From Acholoe squamosa (lineage: Eukaryota > Annelida > Polychaeta > Phyllodocida > Polynoidae), in contig OX439050.1 in NCBI GenBank assembly GCA_949317995.1, positions 1,302,001-1,366,000 of the forward strand: a DNA stretch of 64,000 nt. The letters are read 5' to 3'. The notes beneath the pieces are model-generated. The model was not told the DNA's origin and searched no databases. It worked only from the letters and a program-made list of their open reading frames with translations. This document shows, one piece after another, positions 1-63,298 of this stretch (the stretch's first letter is position 1; each line of letters opens with the position of its first letter). Made by a program: the position numbers and the translations under genes.

Positions 1-15
1 GACATTAATCTCAAT

Positions 16-2378
16 ATGTATGATGAAAATGATGCAGGGTGTAAAAGTTTCAGAAATGTGTGCAAGGATATTGGATGGAAAATACTAATTAATGAGGTGA
101 CGAGACCATTTAGTGGTACTTGTATTGATAACATAATTACAAATAGCTTAGATGTAACTAATGCAAGTACGCTCTCTGCCCTAATTTCTGATCACCTCCC
201 AGTTTTTGGTTGTAGAGGACATGAGAATATCAGTTATGTTAGCACTAAGTATAGAGGAAGAGATTATAGAAACTTTAATGAAGACAGATTTAGAGATTTT
301 TTAGAATCATGTGACTGGAAACCCTATTATAATATTACTGATGATCCTGATATATTATGGGATATGTTATTGACTCCGTTAATTGAGTATTTGGACACTT
401 TTCACCCTCATGTTGAACGATACATTAAAAAAAGTAGGAGATCATGGATTGATGATGAAGTTATGGATTTAGTATTTGAAAGAGAAGGATGGTTACGTCT
501 CTATAGTGCCAATAAAAGTGTTTAGGAAAAGCAAGCCATAAAGGATTGTCGAAGAAAAATTAGGAAGAAAATTAAAGCAAATCAAATTGGTGGTGTCATG
601 CAAGAGTTGCAAGTAAGTTATGGTAATCCCAAAAAATTCTGGAAAAACAAAAATGACTTGTTTAAAAATTCGAATTCTATTGTGTATCCAGACATGAGAC
701 ATCATATAACTGGTGCTGATGTAACTTCTGATGATGTTTGTGAATATGTAAATGATTATTTTTGTAAAATTGGTAAGGATCTGCATATTGCTGCTGTTGG
801 AACTGATCAATATCTTGTGGATAATAATCTAGATATAGATGAACTATTGGCAAATGAAAACTTCTTAGATCAGAATATTAAGGTTAATAAGTGGGATGTC
901 CATTTTGCTCTAAAAGAAATTGATAAAAATAAGTCATCAGGCATAGACGGAATAAGGGGAGATATACTACATTGTGCATTATTGTTGTTGATAAATCAAT
1001 TCACTCATCTGATATATATTAGTTTGGACAGGGGTATTTTTCCAAAATGTTGGGCAATGGCAGTTGTAAGACCATTACCTAAGGATGGGGATTTGGCAAT
1101 GGTAAAAAATTGGCGACCCATATCAATACTACCAATGCCGTCTTAAGTCATTGAGAAAATTATGTATTATTACTTATGTGAAAGTATGAAGAAAAATGGT
1201 ACTTTTTGTGAAAACCAATATGGTTACAAAAAAGGGACAGGTACTGGTGATGCCACTTTTGACTTTGTTAATGAGCTTTATGAATGTAGAAACAATGGTC
1301 TGATAACAGGGGCTCTATTTATAGACTTCACTAAAGCACTTGACAGTGTATTACATTCAAAATTGCTAATTAAACTCAGTAAACTTGGTTTGAGTAAATC
1401 TAATTTTCTATGGTTTAAAAGTTACCTGGAAAATAGAAAACAACGAAGTAGCTATGGTAATAAATTGTCCTCAAACCAAGATATTGATTACGGTGTCCCT
1501 CAAGGATCAGTTTTAGGTCCCCTGTTGTTTTCCTATATATTGATGATGTTGTTAAGGTCTTAAAAAAATGCAAGATTAAACTGTATGCTGAAGACATTGT
1601 GATTTATAGTTCTAACAAAGATGTAGACTTGGTTAATGAGAATTTGAATGAAGATGTAATTAACTTTAAGCGTTGGGTTATCGAAAACAGACTAACAGTA
1701 AATCCAACTAAAACTAAATTTATGTGGTTTTGTAGTGCTCATAAATTAAAAAGATGTCCGGATTCTACCATAGACTTCAATGGCAGCACTGTGCAAACTG
1801 TCACCTTCTTTCCATATCTAGGTGTACATATTGACAGTAAACTTAGTTTTGATAAACAGATTAAAATTATTAAAAGAAATGTATGTAATAAACTATTCAG
1901 GTTTGCTAAGTTAAGAAAGTTTTTAACACAAGAGCAAAGTGTAAAGATATACTGTTGTACAATCAGACCAATTATAGAATATTGTTCATTTATAAGTACT
2001 AGTTGTAATGAGGATGGTCTTGCAGCATTACAACGACTGCAAAATAGAGCTCTTAGAGTCTGTCTGAAATGCAATATTAGACGGTATAGTGAGAAGGAGT
2101 TGCATGAAATTTGTAAGGTTCCAGTGTTAGAGAAAAGATTTGACATGCTATTATTATGCTTAATGTATAAGAAATCAAAGACTGTGTTAAATAGACCACA
2201 ATCTTATAATACAAGGTCTCAAAAGAAGATTGTTTTTGAACTATCTAGGGTTATTACTAGACACTATAAAAGATCGCCATGGTACAGAGGGGTGGCTCTC
2301 TGGAATACTCTACCTGAGGAGATTCAGAAAGCTACGACAAAGGTAAAATTCAAAGAGGGTGTGATGAAGAAAATATAA
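16..2378 (+). pseudogene. LINE-1 ORF2 (endonuclease C-terminus plus reverse transcriptase), broken
   Basis: This encoded the EN-RT polyprotein that nicks target DNA and copies element RNA. The first segment ends in the endonuclease signature SDHLPVFG. RT follows with NWRPIS, QYGYKKG, IDFTKALD (the usual F-D-aromatic motif is altered), YGVPQGSVLGP, the palm motif, and the C-terminal YLGVHIDSKL and ALRVCLK regions. Breaks: in-frame TAG at 523-525, in-frame TAA at 1144-1146, and a one-base frameshift near 1530. The palm box reads YAED instead of [FY]ADD, so the metal-binding pair is mutated. The reading frame resumes as YIDDVVKV at about 1536 and stays open to the stop at 2378. RT identity is certain; the element is not functional. 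Confidence 0.9.
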
Positions 2379-4411: not shown

Positions 4412-4569
4412 TATGACCAAATGTCCATGGCGTCCATGACTCAGTCCCTTTGTTCAGTCTCAGTGCAGTGCCACCTGGTGTGGCAGCACAGAACCACCTG
4501 ACTCAGGTGGTGTGGAGGTCCATCTAGTGGGGGAAATATACCCCCATATCTTGCCCGTTCCTTTGAACA

Positions 4570-7290
4570 TATAGTAGTCAACTTTAAGACACCTGTTTTG
4601 CATTCTTTGTAATTTGTCATTCAAAGTTTTTTATGTTGCTTGGTATAATACACAACCATAGTCAAAAATTGGTAGTAGAAAAGTTTTGTATATTAAGGAT
4701 AGGGTATCTTGATCAAGGATATATGAAATTCTTCGTAATTGGTAACTTCTAAATTCAAGTGTTTATATTTGATTTTTGATGAAGACATCATACTTTAATT
4801 TGGAATCCAATGTTACTCCTAAATATTTGAATGATGGCACTTGGTGTATCTCTTGATTATTCAATTTCAATACAATTCTATTCTTTGTGTTGGGAAAGAA
4901 AATCATATATTTTGTCTTGGCGACATTGACTGTTAGCCAATTTTCTTTACACCATTTTGCATATTTGTCCAAGTCATTTTGCATTTTTGCAATAGTGGAT
5001 TGTAAATCATTACCTGAAGTATATATAACCGTGTCATCAGCAAATAACTAATTTTTTCAATGATCACAACAGGATTCTACATTGTTAACATAAATTAAAA
5101 AGAACAATGGTCCTAAAACAGACCCTTGAGGGACTCCAAAGGATTTTTTTTCTTCAGGTGAGGTAGTATTATTTGCCATTGTCAACTGAAATCTGTCTTT
5201 TAAGTAATTTCGTAATAAATCTAAGGTTTTTCCAGTTATTCCATAATATTTTATTTTTTGTCCAGTAGAACTGTATGATTCACTGTATCAAATGCTTTTT
5301 TTAAGTTAATAAAAGTTGCCAAAGTGAATTTTCCTTCATTCTTATTTAAATGTATGAAATCTGTAAGTGTTCCTATTGTTTCAATAGTGGATCTATTTTT
5401 CCTTTATCCTCCTTGTGCATCTGTCAATATTTTGTGTCTCTCAAGGTACTGTAATAGGTAATCATGAATAATGTGTTTAAATATTTTTCCAGGCAGTGTA
5501 AGTAATGATATTGGTCTGTAATTATTTACTGAAGATTTATCACCTGATTTGAAAAAAGGAACCACTTTGGCTACCTTCCATTCATTGGGGTATATTCCAG
5601 TGGAATATGAGACATTCAGTAAGTAGGTAAAACCATGGGTTATATGCAGAAGCCCAGCTTTTAATACAACTGTTGGTATACTATCAATTGCTGATGATTT
5701 TCCAGTGTCAACATTTTTAGGTGTTTTGTTTTATTTCATTTTCTATTGTAAGGTCTTCTATTTTTGTTAATTCTTGCCTTTGTATGGGTGTGGTCCATCC
5801 ATTGTCAAAATTTGCTGCAAGTTCAGAACCAATTTTCCTGAAGAAGGAATTTATATACTGTACTGTAGTATCATATGGTATGTATTCTTCTTGATTATTT
5901 TTTAAAACAATACAAGGATTATTTGCTTCTTTCAGAGGGAAAGCTTTGTTTAAATTGAACCAGAACTTTTTTGGATTACCTTGACTATTAATAACAGTAT
6001 CCCGTAGATATGTGTTTCTTGTATTATTGATCATGGTATCAACCCTTTCCTTGCTGTGTGAGCTCTATGTTTGTCAATGTCTCTACCCGTTCTTCTAGAT
6101 ATTCTTAGTAATCTGTCTTTTGTTTTTATTTCTGAGATAATTTCTCTAGATATCCAAGGTTCATGTGATTCTCTAACACTATATTCAATATATGGACACA
6201 TTTGGTCTAAGATATCATTGATTCGTGGTTGTATTACATTCCATATTTGACTAGAATTATTAATTCTATATAGATGTTCCCATTCATATTCGTCCAATTT
6301 TTGTTTAAAGATTGTTTCATCATAATTTTTTTTTTGATGACATTTGATTTATATTGTTTTGTGTGATTACTTAACTATATTTTTAACCAAATATGTAAGA
6401 TAATGGTCAGAGACATTCAACTTTTTTGTTCCATTTGATGATATACCTTCTATATTTGAAAATATTTGATCAAGTAAGGTTAACTTATCACCTTGGCTTG
6501 TACCTGTTTTAATTAAGGGTCTGCATCCAATATTTTCTATTATTTGTTGTACAGATATGTCTTGTTTGTCCAGAAAATCAAAATTCATATCTCCTAATAC
6601 AATAACATTCGTTCTATGGCGATGTCTGAAAGCTTCACATATTGTATGTTATTCATCAACAAAATCTTGAGCTGAACCATCCGGTGGACTGTATAAATTG
6701 ATTATTACACATTTCCTTTGGTAACCTCGCTTTACAGATAAAAATTGACATTCTATAGTATTACTAGATACATTCAGATATTCATATTCATTATTTACAA
6801 TGTAGTCATTTCTAATATATGACATAACTCCACCAGCAGTTTTTACTATACCTTTCTTATCTAGCCATGTTCTGTCATTTCGATATAATGTATAACCAGG
6901 TATGTTGTGATTGATAGTAAGGTCATTCTGTTTCAACCATGTTGCTGATATGGTAAAGATATCCACATTTTTTGTGGTTAAATACACCATTAATTATGGA
7001 AGTTTCTTTTCAACACTTCTCATATTAAAATGGGTAACAAGGAAGCCCTGTCCCAGATCCAATGGAGTCTTATCCAGTATCATAGGACCAATCTTGTATA
7101 TATATATTCTAAGCAGTGCCTGTACTTTGCTTATTTGAAGCTCCCCTGGTGGGTCCCTAACCTCCCCCCCCCCCCGCCCATCCTCAAGATTTTAATATTT
7201 AATATTTTGTATAAAAATAAAAATAAAGAACGTCTTATATCAAAATATGTACCTTTTTGATAGATATACTCAGTACATGTCTTTGAGAGA
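4570..7290 (-). pseudogene. LINE-2 ORF2 (endonuclease + reverse transcriptase), heavily broken
   Basis: Reading right to left: the EN opening motif HFNMRSVEKK near 7040, GGVMSYIRND, INLYSPPDG, FDFLDKQD and VSDHYLTY (6990-6367). The EN-RT linker spans 6297-5717 (the reading frames meet near 6031). The RT palm near 5010-5130 reads FGVPQGSVLGPLF then LFADDTVIY. The C-terminal thumb is at 4984-4570 (NVAKTKYMIF, FKYLGVTLDSKL, FDYGCVLYQ, MQNRCLKV). The catalytic FADD is kept, but stops and frameshifts occur throughout, including two stops just before FADD. This is an old copy. Confidence 0.85.
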
Positions 7291-7701: not shown

Positions 7702-8342
7702 TTATATGGTTAACCAATACTCGTGCCCAGGCTTGAAGAACTCAGTAGAAGGATGTAATCCATCTTGTAGTTTGTCGTAGAGTTCCTTTCTACCTATGCT
7801 GGTATGTGACTGGTGTACGAATCTGCTAATCCATGGTGTGGTTAAATTTGACATCCTGTTGACGTGGTTTATGTCCGATACTGCAGCATTGACTAGTTTC
7901 TGTCTATTTTCAGTAGCATTTGCACACACTTTGTTGAGTTGTAGACCAGTTATGGGGACTATTACGACAGTTGTGTTCGGTGCATTTTCTTCAAATTTTC
8001 TTTTCACATCTGTAATTATACATTCCATAGCATTGGCTAACATATCAGTGGTGGCCCAGTCTGATAAAATATATAATTTCTCCAGGATTCGCCATTGCAT
8101 AGGCTAGTGCGCTGTCAGCGCTGTCAACAAAGGTCGCGCCAGGTTTGAATCAAACCCGTATTTTGGCACCACTGTCGTTAATAGAGTCTATTTCAGTTTG
8201 CAGGAATCTTCCTCTACTATCTATGAATATAATTACTGTAGTGGGGGTAACCTTTTTATGGTGTTTGGTACTGTTGTGGGTGTATATCTTCTCCATTTTC
8301 TTCTACAGCCTGGTCCGAGTCACCGTCCGGGTCTTTTGTCAT
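7702..8342 (-). pseudogene. LINE-2 ORF1: SGNH/GDSL-hydrolase-like protein, broken
   Basis: An ATG at 8342 opens an acidic leader. After a one-base shift near 8245 comes VIIFIDSRGRF, which fits SGNH block I with the nucleophile Ser in D-S-R. After a TGA and another shift the protein continues to KLQDGLHPS at its end, matching the block V D-x-x-H pattern with catalytic Asp/His. CR1/L2-group LINEs are known to carry SGNH/esterase domains in ORF1. The GxND block III is not clearly visible, so catalytic competence of the ancestor is uncertain. Confidence 0.6.
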
Positions 8343-59670: not shown

Positions 59671-61045
59671 CTATATAACAGTGGACATCATGTCCTGCTT
59701 CACTTTGTCTTTAAATTCTGAAATGTTTTTTTTATTACGATATTCAGCTGGTAGTCCATTCCATGCCTTAGCACAAACGACTTCTGGACTTTTTTCATAG
59801 GCAACAGCATTAATGAGAGAGTATTCAAGGACAGGAGCTGTACATAGTCTTGTAATCCTAATTGGGTTTTTTACATTTAAACCATTTTTTACCATATGAA
59901 ATGCATGTAATTTTTGATGATAATCTCTTCTGGTATTAAGTTTAGGAACTTTAGCCAGTTGGTGTAAAAGATCAGTTGGCGTTAATATATTTCTTTTAAA
60001 ACATGTTTTCAAGCATCTATTTTGTAATATTTGCAGTTCTTCAAGAAGGGCATGATTTGCTGATCCATAAAAAATATGGGCATAGTCAATAATAGGAAGA
60101 ACATAGGTTTTTTACACTTTCAACATAACCCTATTTGACAACATTTTGCGCAACTTATACAATAAAAATGATTTAAAGCAAATGTTTTTTAACAATAATT
60201 TCACATGGCTATTGAAAGACATTTCTTGATCCAGAATTACTCCAAGATATTTATAAGAAATAACTTGTTTAAGTTTTGTGCCATTCAAAACAATATTAGT
60301 TTGTGGTAATTTCCTCAAAGTAGGAGATGCAGCAAACACCATAACCTTGATGATCACTTAAATGAATATCCAAAGGACCGTAGGACAAAATATTAACGCA
60401 ATTTGTGAATATTAAATCTATACATGTATTAAAACCAGTAGTGGTTGTAACACAATTTATCAACTGTCTAAGATGAAAATTATCCATAGTTTTATATAAT
60501 AAGATGCGTTCATTATCATCAATTAGTGCATCGACATTAAAATCACCTATACATACAATATCAAAGTCGTCAATAGAGTCAATCTGTAAGAATAATGCAA
60601 TAATAGTATTACAAAAGTTAAGCAGATTTCCTTGGGGGGGTCTATACACATTACAGACAATAGTTTTTTTCGCTTTACCTTTCTGAATTATTAACCATTG
60701 AACCTCTATATCTGGATTACCCCTGTTGAGATGTCGTAAAGTTTCAGCAGAACACATAACAGTATCTAAAATATGGGCAATCAAACCTCCACCTCTAAAT
60801 TCACTTATTCTATCATGTCTATACATAGAACAGCGATTTAATTTATAGTGAACGTCAGCATGTGAATTATTCAAGAATGTTTCAGAAAACAGGAGTACAT
60901 CAATATTTTTATTTTCTAATTGTTCTTTAATTCCAGCTATCTTATTTCTTATGCTCCGGGCATTTAGATGGACTACGTAAAAACCGGTATAAAAATTTGT
61001 TTTACCACCATATTTCAATATTATTAAAGAATAATAGTTTGACAA
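59671..61045 (-). pseudogene. LINE-4 ORF2: full endonuclease fused to RT C-terminus
   Basis: Endonuclease (61045-60345) with VHLNARSIRNK, LLFSETFLNN, FRGGGLIAH, CNVYRPPQGN, CIGDFNVDAL and the final LSDHQG: all catalytic blocks are visible. Within a few codons of SDH the sequence becomes the RT segment VMVFAASPTLRKLP and ISYKYLGVILDQEMSF in another frame. TAA at 60114-60112 interrupts, then LPIIDYAHIFYG, ILQNRCLKTCFKRN and the WNGLP/FKDKVK tail end at 59671. RT palm and YADD are absent, so it has no polymerase of its own. Confidence 0.88.
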
Positions 61046-61320
61046 GGGTTTTTACAAGAATTTCACGGGCATGACACACAACCTCAACACATGAAAAAGA
61101 AAAAACAAAGATAAAATAATACAAAAAAGAAAAAGAAAAATGTCCCTCGGAGGGCATACGGCTCTGCTGGCCACCCATCCTAACCAAAGGTATTTTCCAG
61201 GTGTAGAACGGCTCCATTAAATTCCTTTAATAGTTTATATTAATTTTTCTGGGTTGATAATATTATTCACACAAGATAAATCATACTGGTATGTGTGGAT
61301 CTGTCTATACATGTATCTCT

Positions 61321-62810
61321 CTATTCGACAATGGCTTCAGCTGCTTCTGGATGCTCTGGTAGTCTACCATCCGGAGTAGCATTTTCTGGACGATTTTCTG
61401 GAGTCAAGTGTAGGTTTTCTGGTCGATTTCCATCATTTCCTTCACCTTCATCACTCTTGTCATCAGGATAACGTGATAAGACTCGTCTCAGCCTCATCAA
61501 TAGCTTGCCCTGTACATTGGCACCATTTAAGTTGCCCTCTCTGCAGTGTCGATATTGCCCCAGGTGGTAGCCAACTCCATCACAGGATGGAAACTTCCCT
61601 CATACAGGTTTCTGGCATTGACTGATAATAGATATCCTCTCAGATTTGGGTCTGAAAACTTAATAGCGTTCAATTTGTACATGACTATTTCTGCATGTTT
61701 CACCCAGGAAGGATTTTCTTTGAGAATTTTTGTTGCATTCATCATTTGATATGGACATGATTGTTCTAAGATCCTTTGGGCAATGTCATCTCTGTCAAAG
61801 GTCTTTGCCTTATAGAACTGGAAACCCTGTTCCACACAGTTGAATGTTAGATCACCATCTTTAATTACACATGGATATAGGTTAGATAACCGATGATGCA
61901 CTGATCTGTACATTAGGCCATCAGGGGTCGAGGCCTCAGACAATTTCTCCATTGTCAAACCATGGGGTAGATTACCTAACTGCCTGTGACTGTAAGTTCT
62001 ATCATCAATTATAATATGTCTTTGACGTAGTTTGACTTTGATGGAATTTGCCTTGCATAAGAAATACATTGCTCTTAGATCAATAAACTGACAATGTTTA
62101 TTTTCACTCAGTTCATCTCCTATGGAAACATTATCCCATTTGCTTTTACCTCTCAAATTTTTCAGGTTTTTGAACAGTTACCTTTTACATTGCAGGTTGA
62201 GAAAGATCAAATGTATGGGCCTATGCTTACCCTCCATATTGGCTGTATTTTGGTTTAGTTTTCTTCGCTGAGGACCTTCTCTACGGACCGCTGCCACCAT
62301 GTCAACACCCCAGTTAACATTGGTATCGATGAATAGTTGTTTCATATCGGCGTACAGATCTTCATTTACCTTTTCCTCGTAACCTTCAATTATTACAACC
62401 TTCTGTGCATCAATTTTCTCCAGTTTTTCAAACTTATTTTGATGTGATTGTAGTAAATTGGTAGTCGCATCAGCTGTCTTGTTTACAATTTCTAGACTGT
62501 CCTTGACCTCTTGTGTGGCCTTCGAGTTCTCCTCTAGTTTTGTATCAACAGACGCCAAAGTATCATTTAGTCCCGCATTTGTATCATTTATGCATTTAAT
62601 TGAAGTTTGCAATGATAATAATGTTTGCAAAGTATTTGAGGTCATCAGTTCTTGAGCAGACATTCTTTTCTCAAGGGAATTTACTGCATCGATAACATCA
62701 GCTAGACTCGCCGTAGACTTCAACAATGGCTGGGCCGCCATATTTGAAATTTCAGATGCCTCACCTTGCTCAGGAGTTTTTGACCTAGTGTTGCCAGCAG
62801 GGGTTGACAT
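61321..62810 (-). pseudogene. LINE-4 ORF1: coiled coil-RRM-CTD-NADAR fusion, one stop and one frameshift
   Basis: Spans about 496 codons. Residues about 30-135 are heptad-rich (ADVIDAVNSLEKRMSAQ...NKFEKLEKID), then an RRM-like core (VVIIEGYEEKVNED, MVAAVRREGPQRRK, RPIHLIFLN). TAA at codon 211 (62180-62178) is followed in the same frame by the CTD (LFKNLKNLRGKSKWDNVSI). The NADAR domain (about 298-450) has HRLSNLYP, DGDLTFNCVEQGFQFYKAK, IAQRILEQSCPYQM, SWVKHAEIVMYKLNAIKF, GYLLSVNARNLYEGS and TTWGN. After a one-base shift near 61540 it continues with GNLNGANVQGKLLMRLRRVL, the family's C-terminal G-x-N...GK-x-LM-x-x-R signature. A Pro/Glu-rich tail ends at TAG 61323-61321. Expected substrate class is N-glycosidic bonds or ADP-ribose on guanine; partner nucleic acid would be element RNA/DNA. 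Confidence 0.85.
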
Positions 62811-62812
62811 TA

Positions 62813-63298
62813 CTATGTAAGTCTGCGCTTGAGTACCTTATAATCACTAATAACTCGCAAAGAGTTTCCACACTCGTGTTTTTTTTTAAAAATCAGGCTG
62901 ACCATGGGATAACACAATTTTGAAGGAAGGAATGAAGAAAGGAAACGTATTATGTATGGCAGTATTGAGCAACTTAATTTCTGGGCTGTCAATGCATTAT
63001 GACATAGGCGAGGGAAAATACTTAAAATGATGAACTTAGTATTGGGATAAAGTGAGGAGGCACAAGTGATCAACTCTTTAAATAAGTCAAGAATCTCTTC
63101 TGGGGAATTAACAAAAATGTTATTTGTTCCAACATGGAAAATAATACATGAATACTGGGAAAACACATATGGATCATGTAAAATGATAGAAATGATGTCC
63201 TAGATCTTTGCCCCCCCCCTGTAACTAAATGTATCTGTATCATTTAAATGATGAATGAAGCTTACAATAGGGTCCCCGATGATACCTCGAGATGACAT
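62813..63298 (-). pseudogene. LINE-4 5' ORF: SGNH-hydrolase-like, one in-frame TAG
   Basis: ATG 63298; stop TAG at 62815-62813, two nt before the ORF1 ATG, which suggests translation coupling. Block I reads IIGDPIVSF (the nucleophile Ser of GDS is Pro). Block II is YRGGAKI, followed by TAG at 63202-63200. Then DIISIILHDPYVFSQYS and block III IIFHVGTNNI. A C-terminal DxxH is not seen. So it has the SGNH fold but probably lacks activity or is decayed. The same kind of domain is ORF1 in LINE-2. Confidence 0.65.

Follow-up and report, generated by a model that had tools for sequence, protein, structure and literature searches.

LINE retrotransposons of the annelid Acholoe squamosa encode an ORF1 protein fused to a NADAR domain, and the fusion recurs with distantly related reverse transcriptases (RTs), retains conserved catalytic positions and is under purifying selection. 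The NADAR of intact copies is best explained, tentatively and with a confidence just short of even, as a ribosyl N-glycosidase that would act on the element's own RNA or cDNA, with guanine ADP-ribose as candidate substrate and counter-defence as putative role.

A NADAR-bearing ORF1 in a decayed LINE copy

The 64-kb window, the whole stretch of A. squamosa DNA that we analysed, contains a minus-strand element at 59,674..62,837 with a LINE layout in which an ORF1 of coiled coil, RRM and C-terminal domain (CTD) is followed by an ORF2 with an APE-type endonuclease and an RT. Human L1 ORF1p terminates with its CTD and is not known to carry an enzyme domain. The features of this element and of a second remnant are as follows.

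62181..62837, minus strand: first open segment of ORF1, with the N-terminal region, coiled coil and start of the RRM-like part (from the ORF list)
61530..62177, minus strand: second open segment of ORF1, 216 aa, in the same frame as the first
61962..62111, minus strand: ORF1 CTD, residues 23-72 of the second segment
61593..61895, minus strand: Pfam-matched NADAR stretch, residues 95-195 of the second segment
61324..61599, minus strand: C-terminal NADAR stretch (GxN..GKLLMRLR) and ORF1 tail, in a different frame past a frame shift
60299..61051, minus strand: endonuclease part of ORF2 (Exo_endo_phos_2, 1.3e-5; Exo_endo_phos, 7.9e-5)
59674..60348, minus strand: C-terminal part of ORF2, matched by the ORF2 of relative L029
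8672..10716, minus strand: second, different NADAR-LINE remnant, with ORF1 CTD and NADAR (from 10716 down to roughly 9967), then the latter half of an ORF2 at 9970-8672

The first ORF1 segment has its start codon at 62810 and is terminated by a premature in-frame stop, and the second contains the end of the RRM-like part, the CTD and most of the NADAR. ORF1 of the related locus L037 aligns with the window ORF1 at 90.6% identity over 62831-61557, and its residues 414-495 align with 61599-61354 at 76.8% identity (tblastn). Both Pfam endonuclease matches of the window ORF2 fall slightly below their cut-offs, and this part is 54% and 62.5% identical to two pieces of L029. Residues 4-107 of L029 ORF2 match 60661-60350 and residues 604-728 match 60348-59974; between residues 107 and 604 tblastn found no match at the window element, and the RT core is missing. 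The window feature is a dead LINE copy whose ORF1 protein is of the RNA-binding type, has a coiled coil and ends in a NADAR.

The original prediction, made from sequence alone, of a NADAR fused to a LINE ORF1 was borne out by Pfam, by structure and by the endonuclease and, in related loci, the RT downstream. The Pfam NADAR model PF08719 matches the window fragment at 49.1 bits (E 1e-12; curated cut-off 35.1) and six intact LINE ORF1s at 95-97.7 bits, and a predicted structure of the second segment (m45c936e264f9) matches Phytophthora NADAR (8bau) and YbiA (2b3w); the modelled fold is YbiA-like. Pfam scores and structure matches together rule out a chance motif match. A single-sequence model of the N-terminal half of ORF1 predicts helices only, and the assignment of the RRM comes solely from its position and alignment, with no match among solved RRMs.

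The second remnant has a NADAR scoring 71 bits with a local NADAR HMM, a match to L029 ORF1 at 10701-9970, and an ORF2/RT with 61% identity to residues 447-879 of the ORF2 of L034 (group E, below). It also lacks the first half of ORF2 and belongs to another family than the element at 59,674..62,837. Two further pieces left over from LINE ORF2s, belonging to the same broad RT group, lie at 4547-7050 (minus strand) and 1-2375 (plus strand) of the window (tblastn).

Recurrence across LINE lineages and selective constraint

We searched the 1.48-Gb genome with the window's 216 residues and obtained at least 150 matches, the best 150 of 2852 candidates being scored. Among these, at least 23 places besides the window align over residues 1-202 at 90-95% identity, 21 of them stop-free in the aligned part and 18 stop-free with an open frame of 467-506 aa, and more subfamilies appear at about 70, 57, 49 and 43% identity. 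The Pfam NADAR model gave at least 150 genome matches, all above cut-off (best 150 of 3224 candidates). The two best, L001 and L002 (184 and 169 bits), are apparently stand-alone NADAR genes, and the other six loci excised with them (L003-L008) are LINE ORF1 frames, whole or broken. We then compared loci of 6.8-9.5 kb around NADAR matches, picked so that frames were long and scores varied. All 27 loci with room for an RT have one downstream of a NADAR ORF1 and on its strand, with L012 counted by its first copy, which has endonuclease and RT frames, its second being cut by the locus edge.

Six LINE groups bear a NADAR ORF1, designated A, B, C, D, E and W. Group A has ORF1 frames of 488-673 aa with a C-terminal NADAR and extra frames ahead of ORF2; group B has an ORF1 frame of up to 774 aa with a mid-protein NADAR and no recognised RRM, and an ORF2 of 1167 aa; group C has an ORF1 of 524-530 aa and an L1/Tx1-like ORF2; and group W (L029, L037-L043) is the window's own lineage. 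Against human L1 ORF2p the RT of group C reaches 233 bits; that of group B reaches 95 bits with L1 and 70 with R2, and that of group A 47 bits with R2 and 32 with human L1 ORF2p. In an RT tree that leaves open 7 of its 15 inner branches, saturated branches separate B and C from A, D, E and W by 5.5 and 7 changes per site, and the RT of L029 groups with A, D and E. Judged by RT sequence, with L1 and R2 as the named references, groups W, A, D and E do not appear to be L1-like, A by its scores and W, D and E through their grouping with A. Scores and tree distances together place NADAR-bearing ORF1s in three or more RT lineages that are distant from one another.

A genome search with the ORF1 of L013, in which NADAR spans residues 333-475, was scored for the best 86 of 3960 candidates, down to 23% identity, and its rows were counted by eye. 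Seventy-seven of the 86 rows reach residue 474 or further, seven stop inside NADAR, and two stop before it, NADAR then continuing as a separate row in a different frame; because ranking by total score favours NADAR-bearing rows, this count could overlook weakly similar ORF1s that have no NADAR.

Several of these elements carry further coding sequence. In group A, ORF1 and ORF2 are separated by one or two additional open frames, most of them 210-390 aa long and all related to each other; extra frames occur in L004, L006, L008-L010, L013, L014, L028, L032, L033 and L035, with weak matches in L003, L005 and L031 and at 7705-8103 (minus strand) of the window. Several group A frames share a GGFND-like motif, and for three of four tested the best Pfam hint was a sub-cut-off GDSL lipase (E 0.05-0.2), the fourth giving none; the frame is perhaps an SGNH-type accessory ORF. 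In group B, L022 (1267-3537, plus strand) and its sisters show a sub-threshold SASA esterase match (E 0.003) after the mid-ORF1 NADAR, and in L022, L024 and others ORF2 starts in-frame immediately past the ORF1 stop. The extra frame of L031 (2463-3182; group D) weakly matches those of group A (1e-7) and has a sub-threshold Pfam NarE match (E 0.001, 19.7 bits, cut-off 27) that is probably due to chance.

Codon comparisons indicate that the NADAR of LINE ORF1 is under purifying selection. Between L037 and L039, NADAR differs at 9 of its 343 nonsynonymous sites and at 44 of its 89 synonymous sites (omega 0.03, Fisher 2e-26), with omega 0.03 in RRM/CTD, 0.11 in the N-terminal part and 0.45 (p 0.13) in the 41-codon tail past NADAR. 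Between L037 and L038 omega is 0.04 for NADAR and 0.02 for RRM/CTD, with mild constraint on the tail (0.39, p 0.027); the two comparisons are not independent, since L038 and L039 differ by 2.7%. L040 and L041 give 0.15 for NADAR and 0.25 for RRM/CTD, and very close pairs in groups B and C have few changes and NADAR values from 0.10 to 0.82. Omega is given for close pairs only because dS is saturated in most group pairs. L033 and L035, where dS is saturated except in the tail, are identical at 0.89 of positions in NADAR, 0.76 in RRM/CTD, 0.68 in the N-terminal part and 0.32 in the tail, and in L013-L028, L009-L010 and L037-L029 NADAR is no more conserved than RRM/CTD. From these pairwise comparisons NADAR appears about as constrained as the RNA-binding core, more so in some pairs and less in others.

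Catalytic site, substrate pocket and origin of the LINE NADARs

We number residues after the Phytophthora NADAR of PMC11543638. The window copy retains all four catalytic equivalents, E43 (61832-61830), K50 (61811-61809), W89 (61706-61704) and E125 (61601-61599), and its residues E116, K123, W158 and E193 are invariant columns when both window fragments are aligned with 43 viral and bacterial NADARs (alignment A3). For the genome-wide comparison we counted 31 distinct full-length LINE NADARs, having dropped six partial rows (both window fragments; L036, which is the window copy again; two pieces of L003; and L005), merged eight identical rows and set two host rows aside. E43, W89 and E125 are invariant in all 31, and the K50 position is lysine in 24 and arginine in seven. 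In E. coli C7 NADAR a K-to-R change keeps in vitro hydrolysis of guanine ADP-ribose and abolishes rescue of cells from the toxin (PMC11543638). The last-strand glutamate E125 (E193 in the window copy), which in place of Asp or His marks the YbiA subfamily, sets the LINE NADARs apart from the DarTG1 antitoxin, which has an Asp there and an adjacent DarT, whereas the frames downstream of the LINE NADARs are endonuclease and RT.

The phosphate side of the pocket has changed. R79, which contacts the ADP-ribose pyrophosphate in Phytophthora NADAR (PMC11543638), is arginine in 63 of 63 distinct bacterial and viral NADARs and in both host genes, and its position in the 31 LINE NADARs is Asp in 16, Lys in nine, His in six and Arg in none; the contact is conserved in the bacterial and viral rows and is not called defining for the superfamily in the source. 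Of the 31, 23 have a gap at the position of Y84, 22 have Asp at D130 and 16 have Trp at W133, and the stretch from E125 to D130 has five residues in all 31, against six in all 63 bacterial and viral rows, of which the structure alignment included 43. The stand-alone Phytophthora nicotianae NADAR (8bau) and E. coli YbiA (2b3w) likewise keep both Arg79 and the six-residue loop. By residue conservation, then, the LINE NADARs keep the catalytic, distal-ribose side and differ on the phosphate side, a combination that speaks for a shared LINE stock and against the bacterial specificity having simply been copied. With R79 lost, Y84 a gap in most and W133 variable, the substrate may differ from ADP-ribose, and of all results the loss of Arg79 weighs most against a de-ADP-ribosylation reading.

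The LINE NADARs share 24-29% identity (group means) with the host genes L001 and L002, which are much nearer to NADARs of bacteria and viral contigs (up to 59 and 57% identity) than to those of LINEs. A NADAR tree of 23 of the 31 distinct LINE NADARs and the second copy in the window, with 11 viral loci (of 35) and 9 bacterial ones (of 36), places Tx1-like group C, on a long branch, and the other LINE rows among bacterial and viral rows and YbiA, with three label changes; this bacterial and viral set under-samples NADAR diversity because a single host query and a single short pattern supplied it. A single clade of all LINE NADARs is not rejected (AU p 0.18; 0.37 without C), the tree gives no firm order among LINE groups (10 of 45 inner branches open), and it as sampled would fit one LINE origin or several, for example separate captures per clade. 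The five-residue loop common to lineages with distant RTs favours one stock moving between LINE clades with or within ORF1, and convergence on the shared deletion is possible. Any exchange between clades would be old, since the A-B and A-C NADAR identities (0.27 and 0.25) are no higher than those of the RTs (0.26 and 0.26). Three scans for LINE-type NADARs or ORF1s in viral contigs found no relative.

Function of the LINE NADAR

ORF1 proteins of the coiled coil/RRM/CTD layout bind LINE RNA. Multimers of ORF1 would coat the LINE RNA and thereby keep NADAR on the element's own RNA and cDNA, where the domain would hydrolyse a ribose-base N-glycosidic bond, most probably one that attaches ADP-ribose, or a similar ribosyl adduct, to guanine. 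Put in place by an ADP-ribosyltransferase of the host or of an invader, such an adduct would block translation or reverse transcription. This reading, in which ORF1 may bring a base de-ADP-ribosylase to the ribonucleoprotein (RNP), draws on ORF1 RNA binding, on NADAR chemistry and on a precedent in RNA viruses. NADARs strip ADP-ribose from guanine in DNA (PMC11543638, PMC11125620), among them the DarT1-associated antitoxins of the same superfamily (PMC11543638), and polyproteins of some animal RNA viruses, including bivalve and annelid picornaviruses, contain NADARs read as aimed at host ADP-ribosylation (PMC9503650). Selection and recurrence across distant RTs suggest that NADAR aids the element's copying, perhaps by undoing a host defence mark. 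A search of the genome for a Scabin-like ADP-ribosyltransferase gave no match and control genomes were silent too, which carries no weight either way, and we found no assay of a transposon NADAR among the open-access papers listed.

The original prediction had proposed a de-ADP-ribosylating activity carried by the LINE. We infer such an activity from the conserved catalytic positions and from selection, and the absence of R79 from 31 of 31 LINE NADARs tells against it. Its further suggestions, that the domain counters PARP-type end marks or trims nucleic-acid ends, fit poorly with NADAR chemistry: in the assays of PMC11833690, NADARs are active on guanine-base ADP-ribosylation of RNA and inactive on ADP-ribose at phosphate ends.

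The same pocket would also suit an N-glycosidase that is active on something other than ADP-ribosylated guanine, whether a smaller ribosyl-N compound or a modified nucleoside or RNA cap, much as YbiA acts on riboflavin intermediates. Catalytic-side residues kept in 31 of 31, a pyrophosphate arginine gone from 31 of 31, an adenosine-side loop shortened in 23 of 31 and a small-molecule role of YbiA (PMC11543638) all lean this way, but E. coli YbiA, which keeps R79, hydrolyses guanosine-ADP-ribose without Y84 and D86 (PMC11125620, PMC11833690), so the missing pocket residues need not exclude ADP-ribose, and a metabolic housekeeping step would bring a retrotransposon no obvious gain; we regard such a substrate as somewhat unlikely. 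A bolder form of the counter-defence reading, which we judge unlikely, holds that one altered NADAR stock passed between deep LINE clades as a cassette against an unrecognised invertebrate immunity based on nucleic-acid ADP-ribosylation, its pocket tuned away from the bacterial one.

Drift of the pocket residues might instead mark a non-catalytic module, a reader of ADP-ribose, nucleotide or RNA that helps RNP assembly or targets ADP-ribosylated chromatin, in a protein whose layout is otherwise, as generally known, that of a nucleic-acid binder. A pure reader would be expected to lose a glutamate somewhere, and the invariance of both catalytic glutamates across groups with only 22-30% NADAR identity makes this quite unlikely. 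Degradation of soluble ADP-ribose-type immune signals rather than nucleic-acid marks, as suggested for phage NADARs (PMC9503650), is improbable: fusion to an RNP-forming protein points to the element's own RNA or DNA, and the same source favours macromolecular targets for eukaryotic RNA viruses. That the domain is a functionless passenger, a host NADAR fragment captured once, scarcely merits credence despite the stand-alone genes L001 and L002, being ruled out by its occurrence in many families and three RT lineages, low identity to those genes and purifying selection, and contradicted by recurrence across the genome and in the L013 search.

The original prediction cited no described function for the fusion; the fusion itself has been described: PMC12477816 (Genome Biol 2025;26:320) reports, via Repbase, a YbiA-family NADAR in ORF1 of several Crassostrea gigas Tx1 LINEs and suggests that it processes element RNA intermediates. 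It also describes NADAR in the Pol of an Ectocarpus Gypsy, likewise a retrotransposon but an LTR element with the domain at another position, set apart by that description; the BLAST matches given there are almost only bacterial. We found no other report of a LINE ORF1-NADAR among the open-access papers listed, and the distribution of the fusion outside the A. squamosa genome is taken from PMC12477816 alone. Relative to the published reports cited, the sequences here add LINE lineages apparently not L1-like by RT, including the window's, in contrast to the Tx1 elements of Crassostrea, together with catalytic-residue and selection evidence, and likewise a LINE-wide loop deletion, the loss of Arg79 and the mid-ORF1 NADAR of group B.

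The roles of eukaryotic NADARs, those of animals included, are called unclear in PMC11125620. A catalytic-looking NADAR held at omega 0.03 and present in many copies offers a direct test of the element's dependence on an enzyme. To our knowledge, the L1-type ORF1 protein has no such enzyme function. If the element does depend on its NADAR, ORF1 would gain an enzyme function absent from the L1-type protein, and nucleic-acid ADP-ribosylation would become a candidate anti-transposon defence.
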